Assembly (NCBI RefSeq): GCF_900176565.1
Contig: NZ_FXEH01000005.1
Location: 831,384 to 895,383 of the forward strand
Reading direction: 5' to 3'
From: Thalassobacillus devorans
GTDB taxonomy: Bacteria; Bacillota; Bacilli; Bacillales; Halobacillaceae
Length of the DNA stretch: 64,000 bases
Part shown: in pieces, positions 1,275-59,395 of the stretch
Numbering within the stretch: position 1 is the first letter of the stretch
How the letters are laid out: every line of letters begins with the position of its first letter
Notes under the pieces: model-generated
The model's input: only the letters and a program-made list of their open reading frames with translations
Told to the model about the DNA's origin: nothing
The model's database searches: none
Position numbers and translations under genes: made by a program

Positions 1275-1345
1275 CTGTAAACGTCTTTATTTTTGAGTAT
1301 GCTAAAGAAGCCATACTAACAGAATTTATGACCATTTACTTTTTT

Positions 1346-1517
1346 CCTTCTCCCATCCAGACTGTCACTGTCGGCTTTGGAATTTCACCAAATCAGGGGG
1401 AGAACCAGATGCAAAAGCACTTTTTCCATAGCCATTTATGGAGGTACTCCCCGTCGCGGGCTGAAAGCAATACGCTTATAACCGCCGGTTGAGAATTTCA
1501 CTCGACCCCGAAGGAAC
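1346..1517 (-). promoter_or_regulatory. FMN riboswitch (RFN element)
   Basis: Read on the minus strand, the region has RFN core blocks in order: TTCGGGGTCGAGTGAAATTC, then CAACCGGCGG, and finally GCCGACAGTGACAGTCTGGATG. The middle arm between them is variable, as usual. It precedes ribD by about 150 nt and is followed by an intrinsic terminator, so it controls the rib operon by transcription attenuation in response to FMN. Confidence 0.95.
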
Positions 1518-1545
1518 TTGATACGTATTCGATTGACTTATACTA

Positions 1546-9445: not shown

Positions 9446-10009
9446 CTACAAATGAACTTCATCCTGGACGTCCCGTTCACTCAATTCTTTATCATTATAA
9501 TCTGTAGCATCTGTGCCCAGATAAACGGTGTCCCTGTCTGTTATATTGATTAACATATTCCGTATAAATTGGATTCCTCCCAGCGCGAAGCCGATCGGTA
9601 TCGCAATGTACATATAATATAAAGGTGTTTGCATCGCTGAAGTTACTCGCCCTGAATTTTTGATATCGATTACATATAAATAAGAATAATAAGCGAGTAC
9701 AAACAAGAAAAGAGCTGTTATCGCGGGGATGAGAATCATAAGTACCTTTCTTATTTTAAACGGAGCCATATCGTAAAATGCCGACATACTGATATGCCTG
9801 CCTTTGCGTGCGGCGTAACTGATACCCATAAAAGTTGCGATAATGACGGAAAACTGACTGACCTCGTCAGCAAATGGAGGGGAATAAGTAAACAGCGCTC
9901 TCATCAGAGCTTTACCGACAACCATGACTGCAATGATGATTACAGCATAGCTTAATATGAATTCTTCTAATTTAAGTATAAAATTGTCTAGCATCCTAAG
10001 TAATTTCAA
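9446..10009 (-). CDS. dctQ: TRAP transporter small permease (DctQ type)
   Basis: A 187-residue protein with four membrane helices, the small TRAP subunit. The helix-2 region with YSPPFADEVSQFSVIIATFMG and the AARKGRHISMSAFYD loop are diagnostic. The last 30 residues are a polar cytoplasmic tail. Translation starts at TTG, about 10 nt after AGGAGG. It is the first gene of the TRAP operon. The 275-nt gap upstream is AT-rich, with short repeats of the kind CATATATAG/CATATAG around 10140-10165 that could be operator half-sites, though I cannot assign a regulator. Confidence 0.92.
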   Translation of the reverse strand: MKLLRMLDNFILKLEEFILSYAVIIIAVMVVGKALMRALFTYSPPFADEVSQFSVIIATFMGISYAARKGRHISMSAFYDMAPFKIRKVLMILIPAITALFLFVLAYYSYLYVIDIKNSGRVTSAMQTPLYYMYIAIPIGFALGGIQFIRNMLINITDRDTVYLGTDATDYNDKELSERDVQDEVHL

Positions 10010-10284
10010 TGTAAGTATTCCTCCTAATAAATTGCAGGAATTATCTAAAAAAGCTCATGTATTCATTATCATACCGAATGGCTTTCCTACATTCAAACTC
10101 CCCACTTCGCTATAAGACGCTTTCACTACATAAATATTGGCATATATAGCAGTTACGTCGCATATAGTTATATATTATCTCAAATGCTGGGTAATAATGC
10201 TTACTCTATATATTATCAGAAAATTCACTATAATTCTACCTAAAATATGACAGCTTCTAAAGGATGGAAGATTATAGGGTGTTA

Positions 10285-21792: not shown

Positions 21793-21802
21793 TTTGCATT
21801 TA

Positions 21803-21960
21803 TTTGTCTCATATATGCTTAGCTTTTCTCATTTAAATTTGAAATTGTCTCTCATAATTTTAATATTGTCTCGTTTATTTTAAAAATTGTCTCTCTTTTC
21901 TTGAAAATTTGCTCATATAGCTTTGTTTTTTCTCATAACTCTACCAATCGTCTCTCATAC
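21803..21960 (-). repeat. Array A: eight degenerate units with about 21-nt period
   Basis: Read on the minus strand, the AT-rich gap between recQ and rbsK consists of eight copies of a degenerate unit with consensus TATGAGAGACAATTT plus a short A/T-rich tail. The complement of the core (GTCTC or a one-base variant) falls at 21806, 21826, 21847, 21868, 21889, 21910, 21930 and 21950, so steps are 20 or 21 nt. Units differ by several bases, unlike a CRISPR or a simple tandem repeat. The same unit makes up array B at 51862-52016 in the opposite orientation. There is no open reading frame over the array. Confidence 0.85.
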
Positions 21961-50130: not shown

Positions 50131-50222
50131 GTTAAGTATTTGTTTTCTCTCCTTCCTTTTTCACATGAAAAATACACAGTTGGTAAACCTAAATAGAAAT
50201 GAAATCATTAGGAGGATTTCTT

Positions 50223-51800
50223 ATGAAAGAAACGAGAAAATGGGAACAGCCTGAACCAATATGGCGGAAAGATACAAAGATAAAGCAGTTCGACGCTCTT
50301 CAAGAGAATACGACTGCTGAGACAGTGATCGTTGGCGGTGGAATCACCGGAATCACAACCGCTTACCTGCTGGCAAAAGAAGGGCAGGACGTGGTGCTTC
50401 TTGAAGCTGATGAGCTGTTGAATGGGACGACCGGACATACGACCGCTAAGGTCACTGCCCAGCACGGCTTGATTTACCATGAGCTTTTGCAGCACTTTGG
50501 TAAAGAAGGTGCCCAGGCTTATTTTAAAGCTAATGACGATGCTATCCGTTTCATACGTGGCACAGTGGAACAGAACCAAATCGACTGTAACCTTCATAAC
50601 GAAGATGCCTGCATTTATTCGACAACAGACCAATACACAAGAAAACTAGAAAAAGAATATAACGCTTATCAAAAACTCGGAATTCCTTGTGAATACACCG
50701 ATGATGTCCCTTTTGATGCCGAGGCCCAAAAAGCTCTTTATATGAAAGATCAATCGCACTTTCACCCTTTAAAGTACTTGAACTTTTTGCTGGGTGAATT
50801 CACAAAGCTCGGCGGACGTGTGTATGAACAAACAGTAGCTGTCGATGTTGAACATGATCCGGAACTTCGGGTTGTTACTAAGAATGGAAACCGTATCTCT
50901 TGCGACCATATCATCTCCTGTTCGCACTTCCCTTTTTATGATGGGACTGGTTTTTATTTTGCACGTATGTATGCAGAACGTTCTTATGTAGTGGCCATTG
51001 AACCTGAACAGGAATTTGCAGGCGGAATGTATTTATCGGTCGACCAGCCCGTACGCTCTGTTCGCAAGGCACATTATGACGGAAGAAATGTATTATTAAT
51101 TGGTGGAGAAAGCCATCGTACCGGCGAGGGAGTCGATACGGACTTCCATTACCGTGCACTTGAAGAATTTGCAGCCGAGACCTTTGGAATAAAAGAAAAA
51201 CTGTTCCAATGGTCAGCACAAGACCTTTATACCTTAGATAAAGTACCATATATCGGACAAATCACCCGGAACAAAGAAAATATTTATATAGCTACTGGTT
51301 ATAAAAAATGGGGAATGACTTCAGGAACTGCTGCAGCTTTGATGTTGCGGGATCAGTTAACCGGAAAGGAAAACCCATACGCCCATTTATTCAGCCCATC
51401 CCGTTTCCAGGCAGACCCAAGCTTGAAAAAATTCTTCTCTAATAACTTGAACGTTGCGGGTCACCTTTTGGAAGGTAAATCAGAGCGGGTAGGCTTTAGC
51501 CATGAAGCCCTGAAAAAAGGAGAAGGCGGAGTCATACAATATAACGGCCAGCGCGCAGGTGCCTATAAGGATGAAGATGGCCAGGTCTACCTGGTCGATA
51601 CCAAATGTACCCACATGGGATGTGAAGTGGAATGGAATAGCGGCGAGCATAGCTGGGACTGCCCATGCCACGGTTCCCGCTTCTCAATCCAAGGGGAAGT
51701 AATGGAAGGACCGGCTAAACAACCATTGAAGCGCATAGCTATGGAAAAAGATATTCAAACAAACGAGCATCCAGAAAAAGACATGCCAGAGCCGGTATAA
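50223..51800 (+). CDS. FAD-dependent oxidoreductase with C-terminal Rieske domain (YhfW-like)
   Basis: A 525-residue two-domain protein. The N-terminal DAO-type flavin domain begins with TVIVGGGITGITTAYLLAKEG, and the FAD-binding end shows YIATGYKKWGMTSGTAAALM. From about residue 430 a Rieske 2Fe-2S domain has CTHMGC and CPCHGS, supplying two Cys and two His ligands. It should pass electrons from an amine or similar donor via flavin and iron-sulfur cluster; substrate unknown. The B. subtilis counterpart is YhfW. The ATG follows TTAGGAGG. Confidence 0.92.
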   Translation: MKETRKWEQPEPIWRKDTKIKQFDALQENTTAETVIVGGGITGITTAYLLAKEGQDVVLLEADELLNGTTGHTTAKVTAQHGLIYHELLQHFGKEGAQAYFKANDDAIRFIRGTVEQNQIDCNLHNEDACIYSTTDQYTRKLEKEYNAYQKLGIPCEYTDDVPFDAEAQKALYMKDQSHFHPLKYLNFLLGEFTKLGGRVYEQTVAVDVEHDPELRVVTKNGNRISCDHIISCSHFPFYDGTGFYFARMYAERSYVVAIEPEQEFAGGMYLSVDQPVRSVRKAHYDGRNVLLIGGESHRTGEGVDTDFHYRALEEFAAETFGIKEKLFQWSAQDLYTLDKVPYIGQITRNKENIYIATGYKKWGMTSGTAAALMLRDQLTGKENPYAHLFSPSRFQADPSLKKFFSNNLNVAGHLLEGKSERVGFSHEALKKGEGGVIQYNGQRAGAYKDEDGQVYLVDTKCTHMGCEVEWNSGEHSWDCPCHGSRFSIQGEVMEGPAKQPLKRIAMEKDIQTNEHPEKDMPEPV

Positions 51801-51807
51801 GATCAGC

Positions 51808-51850
51808 AAGCCAGAATCCTATGTTGAAACAGGGTTCTGGCTTTCTTTTT
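51808..51850 (+). terminator. Terminator of the Rieske oxidoreductase gene
   Basis: The 13-bp stem AAGCCAGAATCCT/AGGGTTCTGGCTT (one wobble) with a 10-nt loop is followed by TCTTTTTG; array B starts a few nt later. Confidence 0.85.
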
Positions 51851-51861
51851 GTTGGCGTATT

Positions 51862-52016
51862 AGAGACAAAACGTACGTAAAATAGACAATGCTTAACTTA
51901 AGAGAGACAGAATCAAAATTAAGAGTGACAATTTTGAAGAAAAGAGAGAGGTTAGGAAGCATTTGAGAGACACTTTGGCGAATTTATGAGAGTTTTTTCA
52001 AGTATATGAGCATCAT
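51862..52016 (+). repeat. Array B: eight degenerate units with about 21-nt period
   Basis: On the plus strand eight copies of the GAGAGACA core, or variants of it, begin a degenerate unit. The equivalent core base falls near 51865, 51885, 51906, 51927, 51948, 51969, 51990 and 52011, steps of 20-23 nt, mostly 21. The best units (51902 and 51965) read GAGAGACA followed by an A/T-rich tail. The unit matches array A after recQ, which lies in reverse orientation 30 kb away. The array occupies the gap between the Rieske gene terminator and rarD. Confidence 0.85.
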
Positions 52017-52116
52017 CTTATCCGGTACTCATCCCACAAAAACCCTATTGCTTTATCACGATAAATTACCTTATAGTGGAAAGATAATGAGATGCATGTA
52101 AAGGGGATAAGCAAGA

Positions 52117-53016
52117 ATGAATGATAATAAATTAGGAGTTATCTATACAGGCGGGGCTTACGTGCTATGGGGATTCCTGCCGATATACTGGAAGCTGGTG
52201 CAAGAGGTTTCCCCGATCGCTATTCTCGGCCATCGTATTGTCTGGTCTTTCGTATTTATGATCGGGGTTATCTTGATATGGCGGAAATGGAATGAGTTTC
52301 GCTCAGAAATAAAAAGAACATGGAAAAACAAAAAAAGCGCGCTCGGTATTACTTTCGCTTCCATTGCCATCAGCATCAATTGGCTGACATACATATGGGC
52401 GGTAAACAGCGAGCATGTCGTCGAAGCCAGTCTGGGCTATTATATCAACCCTCTGGTGAGTATTTTACTTGGTATGATATTCTTCAAAGAAACTTTTAAC
52501 CGGCCGCAATGGCTGGCATTCATACTGGCAGCTGCCGGTGTAGCTTATATGACCATCAATTTTGGTTCTGTTCCATGGCTCGCATTGATGCTGGCGTTCA
52601 GTTTCGGGATTTATGGCCTCTTGAAAAAGACAGTCGATTTAAACGCCATGTTCGGTTTAACAATTGAAACATTGATCATGACTCCGATTGCTGCCATCTA
52701 CTTGCTGAGCCTGCCGCAAGCAAACTGGGGAAGCATCGACTGGCTGTCCACCACTTCGTTATTATTATTCGGAGCCGGTGTGGCTACCGCCATTCCACTG
52801 CTGCTGTTTGCTGCCGGAGCAAAACGGATTCCATTATCCATGGTTGGCTTTTTGCAATATATTGCTCCTACCATCATGCTGATCATCGGCGTATTTCTAT
52901 ACAAGGAACCATTTACACACGTTCATCTGGTGTCATTTTTATTCATCTGGGCGGGCTTATTAATCTATACGTATGCCAGAGTGAAACGACTGCGGCGATA
53001 TGACCAGGCCGCCTAG
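52117..53016 (+). CDS. rarD: EamA family transporter RarD
   Basis: A 299-residue protein with 10 membrane helices in the two EamA repeats of the drug/metabolite transporter superfamily. The start YTGGAYVLWGFLPIYWKLVQEVSPIAILGHRIVWS is characteristic of RarD, and helix 5 region SLGYYINPLVSILLGMIFFKE is conserved too. Substrate is unknown; the name comes from chloramphenicol sensitivity of E. coli mutants. AAAGGGGA lies upstream of the ATG. It is a single gene. Confidence 0.93.
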   Translation: MNDNKLGVIYTGGAYVLWGFLPIYWKLVQEVSPIAILGHRIVWSFVFMIGVILIWRKWNEFRSEIKRTWKNKKSALGITFASIAISINWLTYIWAVNSEHVVEASLGYYINPLVSILLGMIFFKETFNRPQWLAFILAAAGVAYMTINFGSVPWLALMLAFSFGIYGLLKKTVDLNAMFGLTIETLIMTPIAAIYLLSLPQANWGSIDWLSTTSLLLFGAGVATAIPLLLFAAGAKRIPLSMVGFLQYIAPTIMLIIGVFLYKEPFTHVHLVSFLFIWAGLLIYTYARVKRLRRYDQAA

Positions 53017-53490: not shown

Positions 53491-53599
53491 CAGGCTGTCG
53501 AGAAAGTCTCGACAGCCTTTACTTATTTCACTCATCTTTAATAAATCACCGCGTTAATTTGTTATAATACTTATAACTAATAATTTGAAAGGTGATTTG

Positions 53600-54955
53600 A
53601 TGTTTCAATCAAAAAAAGAACGACAAAGTGAAATGGAAATAGTCACGATTGAAGAGCTTGTGCCCGAAAATCATCTCCTCCGTAAAATTGATCAATACAT
53701 AGATTTTTCTTTCATCCCTGAAAAGGTTCGTCCTTACTATTCAGAAGATAATGGTCGCCCTTCACTAGATCCACTTGTATTATTTAAAATGATGTTCATT
53801 GGTTATATCTATGGCGTTCGTTCCGAACGCGAATTGGCACGACAAATCGAAACTAATATTGCTTATCGTTGGTTCTTAGGGTTGAACCTTAAAGATCCCG
53901 TTCCCCATCATTCCACCATTAGCTGGAACCGCCGTACTCGTTTCAAAGATACGGATATCTTCCAAGAAATATTTGATGAAATTGTATTACAAGCGATGAA
54001 TCACCGTATGGTATCAGGGCGTGTGTTATTTACAGATTCCACACACTTGAAAGCTAATGCGAATAAGAAGAAATTCTCGAAACAAGAAGTTGAAGAAGAA
54101 ACGTTAGACTACATCGAAGATTTGGAAGAGGCAGTAAGGAAAGATCGTGAAGATCATGGAAAAAAGCCTCTGAAGGAAAAGGAGGAGGCGAAAAAGAAAA
54201 AAGAAATCAAGGTCAGTGACACGGATAGCGAGAGTGGTTATCTCTATCGGGAAAATAAGCCGGAAGGCTTCTTCTATCTTGATCACCGCACCACAGATTT
54301 GAAGCATAACATTATTACTGATGTTCATGTGACTCCGGGAAATATTCATGATTCCAGACCTTACTTACAACGGTTGGATCGTCAGATCGAACGGTTTGGC
54401 TTTGACGTGGAAGCCGTAGGTTTGGATTCCGGATATTTGACGAACCCTATATGTCATGGGCTTATTATGGAAAGAGGAATATTCGGAGTAATTGCTCATC
54501 GGAGGTATCAGTCAAAAAAGGGGTTCCTTCCGAAATGGAAATATACATATGATGAAAAGCGAGATGTGTATGTGTGCCCGCAGGGTGAAGTGTTGAGTTA
54601 TGCGACAACCGACCGTGAGGGATATCGGCATTACAAATCAAACCCTGAAAATTGTGCGGACTGTCCTCTTCTTACGAAGTGTACACAAAATAAGAAACAC
54701 CAGAAAACCGTTACCCGTCATGTGTGGGAAGGCTCGAAAGAGCAGGTTCGATTGAACCGACTTTCTAATGAAGGTAAATGGATTTATCGAATGAGAAAAG
54801 AGAAAGTGGAACGTAGCTTCGCAGATTCAAAAGAACTGCATGGGCTGCGTTATTGTCGCTTGCGCGGAAAAGAAAATGTACGCGAACAAGCGTTACTGAC
54901 GGCTGCCTGCCAGAACATGAAGAAGATTGCCCTTCACCTATCCAAGGTGAGTTAG
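53600..54955 (+). CDS. IS1182 family transposase
   Basis: A 451-residue DDE transposase. An N-terminal DUF772-type domain (LVLFKMMFIGYIYGVRSERELARQIETNIAYRWFLGL) precedes the catalytic domain with Asp in LFTDSTHLKANANKK, Asp in AVGLDSGYLTNP and Glu in KEKVERSFADSKELHGLRYCRLRG. A charged insert (about 170-210, EKEEAKKKKEIKVS) separates the first two. No frameshift or internal stop is seen, so it may be active. The ATG follows AAAGGTGA. Confidence 0.95.
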   Translation: MFQSKKERQSEMEIVTIEELVPENHLLRKIDQYIDFSFIPEKVRPYYSEDNGRPSLDPLVLFKMMFIGYIYGVRSERELARQIETNIAYRWFLGLNLKDPVPHHSTISWNRRTRFKDTDIFQEIFDEIVLQAMNHRMVSGRVLFTDSTHLKANANKKKFSKQEVEEETLDYIEDLEEAVRKDREDHGKKPLKEKEEAKKKKEIKVSDTDSESGYLYRENKPEGFFYLDHRTTDLKHNIITDVHVTPGNIHDSRPYLQRLDRQIERFGFDVEAVGLDSGYLTNPICHGLIMERGIFGVIAHRRYQSKKGFLPKWKYTYDEKRDVYVCPQGEVLSYATTDREGYRHYKSNPENCADCPLLTKCTQNKKHQKTVTRHVWEGSKEQVRLNRLSNEGKWIYRMRKEKVERSFADSKELHGLRYCRLRGKENVREQALLTAACQNMKKIALHLSKVS

Positions 54956-59283: not shown

Positions 59284-59395
59284 ATCTCTTATCGAGAGCG
59301 GCGGAGGGACTAGGCCCGACGATGCCCGGCAACCATCAAGCATTGCTTGAAAAGGTGCTAATTCCTACAGATCTGTGGATCTGAAAGATAAGAGG
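59284..59395 (+). promoter_or_regulatory. SAM-I riboswitch (S-box)
   Basis: The S-box core is present: TCTTATCGAGAGCGGCGGAG, GGCCCGACGATGCCCGGCAACC, AAGGTGCTAATTCCTACAG and AAAGATAAGAGG. The first and last parts form P1. It is followed by a terminator, so SAM should turn the metY-hom operon off. Confidence 0.97.

Follow-up and report, generated by a model that had tools for sequence, protein, structure and literature searches.

Direct-repeat arrays with a two-turn period at gene ends in Thalassobacillus devorans and related Bacillaceae

Two arrays of one repeat in a 64-kb window

Between a gene for a Rieske-type oxidoreductase and rarD, Thalassobacillus devorans carries a short array of direct repeats, which we call array B. 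We studied it within a window of 64,000 nucleotides (the whole stretch of DNA that was analysed), which also holds a second array of the same element, array A. The main features, in window positions, are:

50199-51800, plus strand: gene upstream of array B, an FAD-dependent oxidoreductase with a C-terminal Rieske domain (Pfam scan)
51805-51846, plus strand: hairpin and then a T-rich stretch (inverted repeat I1), 3' of the oxidoreductase/Rieske gene; upstream border of array B
51858-52013, plus strand: array B of class 1a (GAGACA flavour), made up of eight direct-repeat units, each 19-23 bp; profile score 63.5
51863-51868, plus strand: core GAGACA of unit 1 of array B (motif chain coordinates)
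51883, 51904, 51925, 51944, 51967, 51988 and 52008, plus strand: first G of the GAGACA-type cores of units 2 to 8 (motif chain)
52048-52077, plus strand: block TTGCTT-18 nt-TATAGT, 3' of array B and upstream of rarD, common to the five aligned Thalassobacillus genomes
52117-53016, plus strand: gene downstream of array B, a rarD-like transporter with EamA domains (Pfam scan)
21800-21959, minus strand: array A, eight units of the same element as array B, in a gap between convergent genes

A first-pass annotation of this DNA had described about eight plus-strand units, mostly 21 nt apart, between the Rieske-gene hairpin and rarD. This agrees with what we measured: eight motif copies at 51863-52013, with steps between cores of 20, 21, 21, 19, 23, 21 and 20. 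It had also described array A as the same unit in the opposite orientation, and array A indeed has eight units on the minus strand, with steps of 20, 20, 21, 21, 21, 21 and 20.

The hairpin upstream of array B has 16-nt arms (51805-51820 and 51831-51846; 88%) and is likely a terminator. A comparable hairpin is present at this locus in T. devorans CECT 7046 (G004), T. devorans MSP14 (G002) and T. cyri (G001); T. pellis is G003 and the genome that contains the window is G000. Judging from its sequence, the TTGCTT/TATAGT block is a possible promoter of rarD. A consensus scan of 51780-52130 for promoters and terminators called none, that is, neither the hairpin nor the block. The Pfam scan covered five proteins from the window or from insertion sequences (IS). 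We also note a transposase gene at 53585-54955 (DUF772 and DDE_Tnp_1_6), which is presumably IS1182-like and which lies 1.6 kb downstream of array B and outside any array.

Array B is not a chance feature of A+T-rich DNA. A comparison with shuffled DNA had been proposed as the test that could refute the element, so we trained a motif profile without arrays A and B and scored 2000 dinucleotide-preserving shuffles of each array's gap. Array B scored 63.5 as compared to a mean of 5.8 for the shuffles (sd 2.7, maximum 28.8), and array A scored 79.2 as compared to a maximum of 20.6. None of the 2000 shuffles reached the score of the array in either case, and the next-best profile score anywhere in the 64-kb window was 13.7. 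We also built two models: R1, a sequence-only model from 17 arrays, and R2, from 17 arrays with A and B left out. In the window, R2, whose training set includes array A's orthologue in MSP14 (L186), finds array A with E = 2.9e-6 and array B with E = 0.0012. The stretch that scored 13.7 (9958-10062, minus strand) is a weak, decayed-looking resemblance to class 1 (R1 E = 0.74, R2 E = 0.019); it is possibly a relic or a chance match.

Tandem Repeats Finder does not list array B and lists array A only in part (21842-21909), and an inverted-repeat search found none whose two arms both fall within array B. The Rfam 15 scan of the window left the arrays unmatched; above the gathering score it found only an FMN riboswitch and a SAM riboswitch, at 1341-1519 (minus strand) and 59286-59394 (plus strand). 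Predicted RNA folds were no better than those of shuffles (z of -0.51 for array B and +0.66 for array A). With both the Rfam scan and the folds of A and B negative, we rejected an RNA element as the identity of the arrays.

Copy number, architecture and placement

The idea that the unit is a dispersed element rather than a local accident holds for the whole genome. A pilot search of both strands with a gapped pattern gave 96 matches, versus 56 with the reversed pattern. With model R1 there were 47 matches at E <= 0.005 among the best 150 of 1020 candidates. These correspond to 40 arrays, as an insertion sequence divides six arrays into two parts each and a further array was matched twice; 17 of the 40 are the arrays that R1 was trained on. 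The genome thus has at least 40 arrays, and R2 adds at least two more (C3:29681 and C4:833316).

We determined the architecture by chaining motifs across the 34 uninterrupted arrays. Exactly eight units are present in 27 of them. The other seven have other unit numbers and were omitted from the stacking; five of the 34 are partial arrays of three to six units. (In one scan with a threshold of 22, the reversed sequence gave three chance chains at 22-26, and partial arrays that score under about 30 there are uncertain.) Among the 27 eight-unit arrays, the first step is always 20 bp; steps 3, 4 and 5 are 21 bp in 25, 25 and 26 arrays; and the seventh and last step is 20 bp in 20 arrays. The commonest full pattern, 20, 21, 21, 21, 21, 21, 20, accounts for 8 of the 27. 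The repeat unit is an 11-bp motif plus a 9-10-bp spacer, with a period of two helical turns, and an array is about 156 bp long (145 bp from the first motif to the last, plus 11). The spacers after units 4-6 have the highest A+T content (74-80%, from the 27 eight-unit arrays).

The motif comes in two flavours. Flavour 1a (TATATGAGACA or TAAGAGAGACA) is found in 24 of the 34 arrays and flavour 1b (TTTACTAGACA) in 10. Among the loci that we fetched from relatives, which were chosen with a 1a-trained model, flavour 1b makes up 10 of 15 in T. cyri, 4 of 8 in MSP14 and 3 of 36 in CECT 7046.

The arrays lie preferentially between convergent genes. Simple ORF calls placed 39 of the 40 arrays (one could not be called), and as background we used 142 gaps of 150-600 bp from 24 sampled stretches, some of which were picked near arrays. 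On this basis, 23 of the 39 arrays are in convergent gaps versus 13% of the background gaps (p = 3e-11), and just one is in a divergent gap versus 20% of the background (p = 0.0015). In the 15 tandem gaps, the array runs with both genes in 11 cases and against them in 4. Terminator-like hairpins are on the 3' side of 14 of the 34 uninterrupted arrays, on the 5' side of 10, and on neither side of 14, and several arrays lie between a stop codon and a terminator.

Could the arrays act in the 3' untranslated region of the mRNA, by affecting its stability or processing or by binding a protein? The co-directional arrays in tandem gaps and the arrays between stop codon and terminator are what this would predict. 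On the other hand, some arrays lie behind terminators or between them, the hairpins show no consistent side, arrays A and B do not fold better than shuffles, and a 21-bp period matches the DNA helix. We consider an RNA-level role very unlikely.

We also rejected a replication-polar motif of the KOPS or SRS type, as there is no strand bias along the replichores: 19 of 38 arrays are on the leading strand (judged from the GC skew of sampled chunks, with the two arrays on C3 left out). Separately, a 0.87-Mb region of C4 (1.0-1.87 Mb), which holds a switch in GC skew at 1.15-1.3 Mb, contains none of the 40 arrays.

Inheritance, loss, exchange and a transposon that targets the arrays

The first-pass annotation had suggested that orthologous gaps in relatives be compared, and doing so revealed that most arrays are inherited at orthologous places. 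By reading of the alignments, an orthologue of at least 32 of the 40 arrays is present among the 36 loci fetched from CECT 7046. Loss occurs as well. Array B is intact in CECT 7046, has drifted and lost units in MSP14, and in T. cyri has been shortened by a deletion that removed three to four units. It is absent from T. pellis and from three other genera (G005, G007 and G008). T. pellis has no match to R1, to R2 or to a third model, R3, for a second class of arrays that is described below. Given the loss of array B in two species, and given that T. pellis matches none of these models, the element is not essential.

Between species, the motif is more conserved than the spacers, which drift. Across 27 orthologous pairs from our genome and CECT 7046, substitutions affect 120 of 1216 positions in GAGACA (0.099), 319 of 1700 spacer positions (0.188), and 1000 of 8059 positions in the 150-bp flanks, which include coding DNA (0.124). 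The central G of GAGACA is substituted at a rate of just 0.03. The rates for core, spacer and flank are 0.23, 0.45 and 0.30 in MSP14 and 0.18, 0.44 and 0.24 in T. cyri (6 pairs each).

The arrays might be neutral tandem repeats that change by slippage, as in a VNTR, and have no function. In favour of this, whole units have been lost in T. cyri and MSP14, and Lentibacillus and Oceanobacillus have some arrays in which the units are nearly identical. This explanation does not account for a motif shared by 40 loci whose spacers are mostly unrelated, for the usual eight units, or for the constraint on the motif, and we give it the least credence of the alternatives: it is extremely unlikely.

At two sites we can see how an array might be lost or replaced. 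At C4:724935, the array sits between two near-identical copies of one terminator (L096, about 9860-10150). CECT 7046 has one terminator and no array at this site, and T. cyri has the array and a remnant of the second terminator, so the array was likely lost by recombination. This empty site, the one that we read closely, fits loss between duplicated terminators better than it fits a clean insertion. For array B, there is no empty site in a close relative. (The terminator hairpins at 724.9 kb have a conserved internal loop, GGGACATCCA..TCTGGAGGACC. This hairpin recurs in T. cyri, MSP14 and CECT 7046, and in MSP14 a hairpin of this type flanks a 2.2-kb insertion.) At C1:955873, three species have a TACTAGACA (1b) array, and CECT 7046 has a GAGACA (1a) array in its place, even though the loci are 91% identical overall. 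Whole arrays can therefore be exchanged. The closest spacers to those of this GAGACA array are at another locus of CECT 7046 (L176, identity 0.67), although the two can be aligned directly, at 76%, over no more than 71 nt. Among the orthologous pairs that we classified, the two members are of different flavour in 1 of 27 for CECT 7046, 1 of 6 for MSP14 and 2 of 6 for T. cyri.

Copying within a genome has also left a trace. Two loci of CECT 7046 (L152 and L170) share a 250-nt block, comprising a terminator and the first units, that is 83% identical. Their spacer identity is 0.80, versus a mean of 0.44 (sd 0.05) over the 1065 comparable within-genome pairs; 126 more pairs were too short. Together with the exchange at C1:955873 and the restriction of arrays to particular lineages, this is what we would expect from a selfish or tolerated REP-like repeat. 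Such a repeat would spread by copying blocks of terminator plus array and by recombination between arrays, would persist at gene ends because insertions elsewhere do harm, and would have its motif read by the spreading machinery. Yet spacer identity is at or above 0.6 in only 4 of the 1065 pairs; most arrays are at orthologous places in CECT 7046; the motif is constrained relative to the spacers; and uninterrupted arrays of about 156 bp carry no gene of their own. We think that a selfish repeat is unlikely, and of the alternatives it is the one that we take most seriously.

The arrays are themselves a target. An IS3-family element (NF033516; Pfam rve and HTH_Tnp_1) has six copies in our genome, where all 19 candidates were scored. 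All six are inside class-1 arrays, in one orientation, and each is inserted precisely 9 nt past a motif's first G, in the third to fifth unit. Five of the six have a target duplication of 3-4 bp and the sixth has none. The element has no match in CECT 7046 (among the best 9 of 18 candidates). At five of the six orthologous loci in that genome, both flanks align with no room for an IS; at the sixth (L161), just one flank aligns. The arrays thus came before the IS.

Among 39 relatives, related copies of this IS are found only in G024, which is another genus of the family. It has at least nine copies (nine of 42 candidates were scored, all at 71%). At seven of these nine, the flanks form a 20/21-bp array of different words (GGGCAGAATC or GGGAACAATC). 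By eye, the break follows base nine of the motif at five of the seven and base eight or ten at two (L370 and L366). The joined flanks of these seven score 0.44-0.65 at lags of 19-23, and neighbouring lags give no more than 0.40; L369 is the weakest (0.44 versus 0.40). L362 and L363, the two exceptions, score 0.39. There is a parallel in the IS3-family elements IS1397, ISKpn1 and ISPsy8, which use REPs as targets (PMC1525189).

Other classes, a proposed role and known systems

A second class of arrays, with the unit GTTAGGGCAGAANNTNNNNNN and again with a period of 21 bp, came to light when 23 sampled stretches of our genome were put through an unbiased lag scan. We built model R3 from six arrays of this class. 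Class-2 arrays, with a GTTAGGGCAGAA unit, lie at:

L298:1938-2061, L298:7324-7428 and L298:19487-19612
L299:13210-13333
L310:1046-1172
L096:3111-3236

R3 has 15 class-2 matches in our genome, 21 in T. cyri, 10 in MSP14, 22 in CECT 7046, and none in T. pellis. Matches occur in 20 of 61 genomes (including our own) and in 5 of 30 genera; outside of Thalassobacillus, the loci read individually were those of G024. Of 30 class-2 loci, some of which are orthologous to each other, 10 are in convergent gaps, 20 in tandem gaps and none in divergent gaps. The class-2 arrays are clustered, with 7 of the 10 matches on C4 at 601-668 kb. Six proteins encoded beside class-2 arrays (NERD, N-acetyltransferase, Cu/Zn SOD, hexapeptide transferase, UbiA, and one with no Pfam match) do not point to a binding protein. 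T. pellis has one array of a different unit (ATCAGCGGA...) in the 240 kb that we sampled.

The period extends beyond Thalassobacillus. Around rarD in 80 named loci, 15 groups of noncoding repeats have lags of 19-23, and there are none at 14-18, 24-28, 29-33 or 34-38. There are also 14 groups at 39-43 and 10 at 59-63, which fit multiples of 20-21, as well as one at 44-48 and two at 54-58. A further 15 groups, from 11 loci, have lags of 49-53 (for example L242:13384-13895, L243:3824-4288 and L239:11462-11803). These tandem repeats, which are noncoding and in those that we read recur about every 52 bp (around five helical turns), are a set distinct from the 20/21-bp arrays, and 21 is not the only repeat period in the family.

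Hosts of 20/21-bp arrays include Halobacillus, Virgibacillus, Lentibacillus, Oceanobacillus, Ornithinibacillus and Salipaludibacillus. We suspected that the weak R1 matches in G012, G018 and G024 and the R2 match in G037 were noise, and rejected this when the five loci that we read turned out to be other 20/21-bp repeats. L306:4723 and several lag-21 matches in the stretches sampled from G000, G003, G007 and G008 resemble, on reading, coding repeats or low-complexity DNA and are not counted. At four loci (L235, L240, L244 and L246; for example in Lentibacillus jeotgali and Oceanobacillus chungangensis), two types of unit seem by eye to alternate, giving dimers of 40-42 bp. Convergent placement is less marked in other genera: among the 17 noncoding arrays whose neighbours could both be called, 7 are in convergent, 8 in tandem and 2 in divergent gaps. 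Arrays across genera share the period and the intergenic location, and in two genera the targeting by the IS, which does not suffice to show a single homologous family. Virgibacillus halodenitrificans ASH15 is reported to have 36 CRISPRs (PMC10556750). Our guess is that some of these may be misread 20/21-bp arrays; our locus L262 is from another strain of this species.

Class-1 arrays are predicted to be intrinsically curved, using wedge values that are general knowledge. The mean z is 3.1 above shuffles for 28 class-1 arrays and -0.1 for their flanks. It is 2.1 for 10 arrays from other genera and 0.0 for six class-2 arrays, so curvature is not what the arrays have in common.

Could DNA gyrase or another topoisomerase be what binds? 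By analogy with BIME-2 of E. coli, an array would offer about 150 bp for wrapping and a cleavage site at which supercoils between convergent genes are relaxed. The wrap length of gyrase, as generally known, can be set beside the length of the arrays, and their A+T-rich central core, helical phasing, convergent placement and (for class 1) predicted curvature are all suggestive. Also, REP elements bind gyrase and are often between convergent genes (PMC1525189). Against gyrase, the motifs are direct and lack dyad symmetry, the prediction of curvature does not extend to class 2, and the motif varies between species and even between the classes of one genome, which one conserved enzyme does not explain. 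We view a topoisomerase site as improbable.

Beyond what we observed of the arrays (their existence, copy number, architecture, motif constraint, 3'-end placement, orthology, loss, swapping and targeting by an IS), we propose, with a probability of about 0.45, that they are helically phased DNA platforms for a sequence-specific protein that acts between transcription units. With a spacing of two helical turns, the eight motifs would all point to one side of the DNA along an array of about 156 bp. A sequence-specific protein would bind the motifs and either assemble along one face of the helix or wrap the DNA. There might be a few paralogous binders instead of one, because more than one class of motif coexists. 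The bound array would then act as an insulator or topological node at the 3' ends of genes, and chiefly where two genes converge, in the manner proposed for BIMEs. We favour a protein platform at the DNA level because the period matches the helix, the motif is constrained, arrays A and B show no RNA structure, and at some loci the array is behind or between terminators. The stereotyped architecture, the convergent placement, the predicted curvature of class 1 and the insertion of IS elements into arrays in two genera speak for it as well. Several points count against it. Two motif classes per genome are not easily explained by one trans-acting protein, and a neutral repeat would also end up in convergent gaps if selection purges insertions near promoters. 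Seven of the 34 arrays depart from eight units, the placement is less marked in class 2 and in other genera, 21 is not the family's only repeat period, class 2 does not share the curvature, and array B is being lost in two species.

Taking all of the genera together, we tentatively suggest something broader, which may be right and which we would not bet on: that these are a kind of cis-element that has not been named. It would consist of helically phased two-turn arrays, with coexisting classes of motif and turnover of the motif between species, across the halophilic Bacillaceae (Thalassobacillus, Halobacillus, Virgibacillus, Lentibacillus, Oceanobacillus, Aquibacillus, Ornithinibacillus and others). 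The arrays would be read by a fast-evolving family of DNA-binding or DNA-wrapping proteins, and would be parasitised by an IS3 lineage whose register follows the arrays between genera even though the motif words differ.

How do the arrays compare to known repeats? Iteron or centromere-type arrays, such as plasmid origins or parC of the pSK41 type, consist of direct repeats spaced about 20-22 bp apart, on which proteins line up along one face of the DNA. Those are usually present as one set per replicon, beside a rep or par gene, whereas there are about 40 of our arrays per chromosome and the neighbours of array B are an oxidoreductase and a transporter. The regular alternation of motif and variable spacer recalls CRISPR and TIGR arrays, but our units are diverged, and between orthologous loci the spacers drift by substitution. 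The view in the first-pass annotation that the element fits poorly with CRISPR, IS or a classical MITE is therefore borne out: the units are not the near-identical repeats of a CRISPR, and array B lacks the terminal inverted repeats of an IS or MITE.

The REP and BIME elements of enterobacteria and pseudomonads are, like the arrays, dispersed, extragenic, common in convergent gaps and targeted by IS3-family elements (PMC1525189). The arrays share their location at 3' ends as well, and lack the palindromic hairpin unit. REPs are palindromes of 20-40 bp (PMC3733652), whereas the arrays have eight direct, non-palindromic motifs in helical register, and A and B have no fold beyond that of shuffles. 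The STAR elements of Staphylococcus are also interspersed intergenic direct repeats, with a short conserved motif, locus-specific spacers and species-specific loci. STAR has a 14-bp GC-rich motif, T(G/A/T)TGTTG(G/T)GGCCC(C/A), and its spacers are 40 bp or longer; three described loci have 1-7 units (PMC3532100). Our arrays have an 11-bp motif, a 9-10-bp spacer, a two-turn period and usually eight units; as both motif and period differ, we do not assign them to STAR.

Our best reading is that the arrays work most like BIMEs and yet are outside the REP, STAR, CRISPR and MITE families. We found no description of such arrays in the open-access literature that we searched, a search that did not extend to subscription papers. 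If the arrays do seat a dedicated protein, they would belong to a chromosome-organising or transcription-insulating system of the Bacillales that we likewise did not find described there. REP and STAR have long been known without a settled function. The arrays add handles that those families lack: the usual eight units, the two-turn period on one face of the helix, the constraint on the motif, the exchange of whole arrays, and a transposon that inserts at one register in six of six cases.
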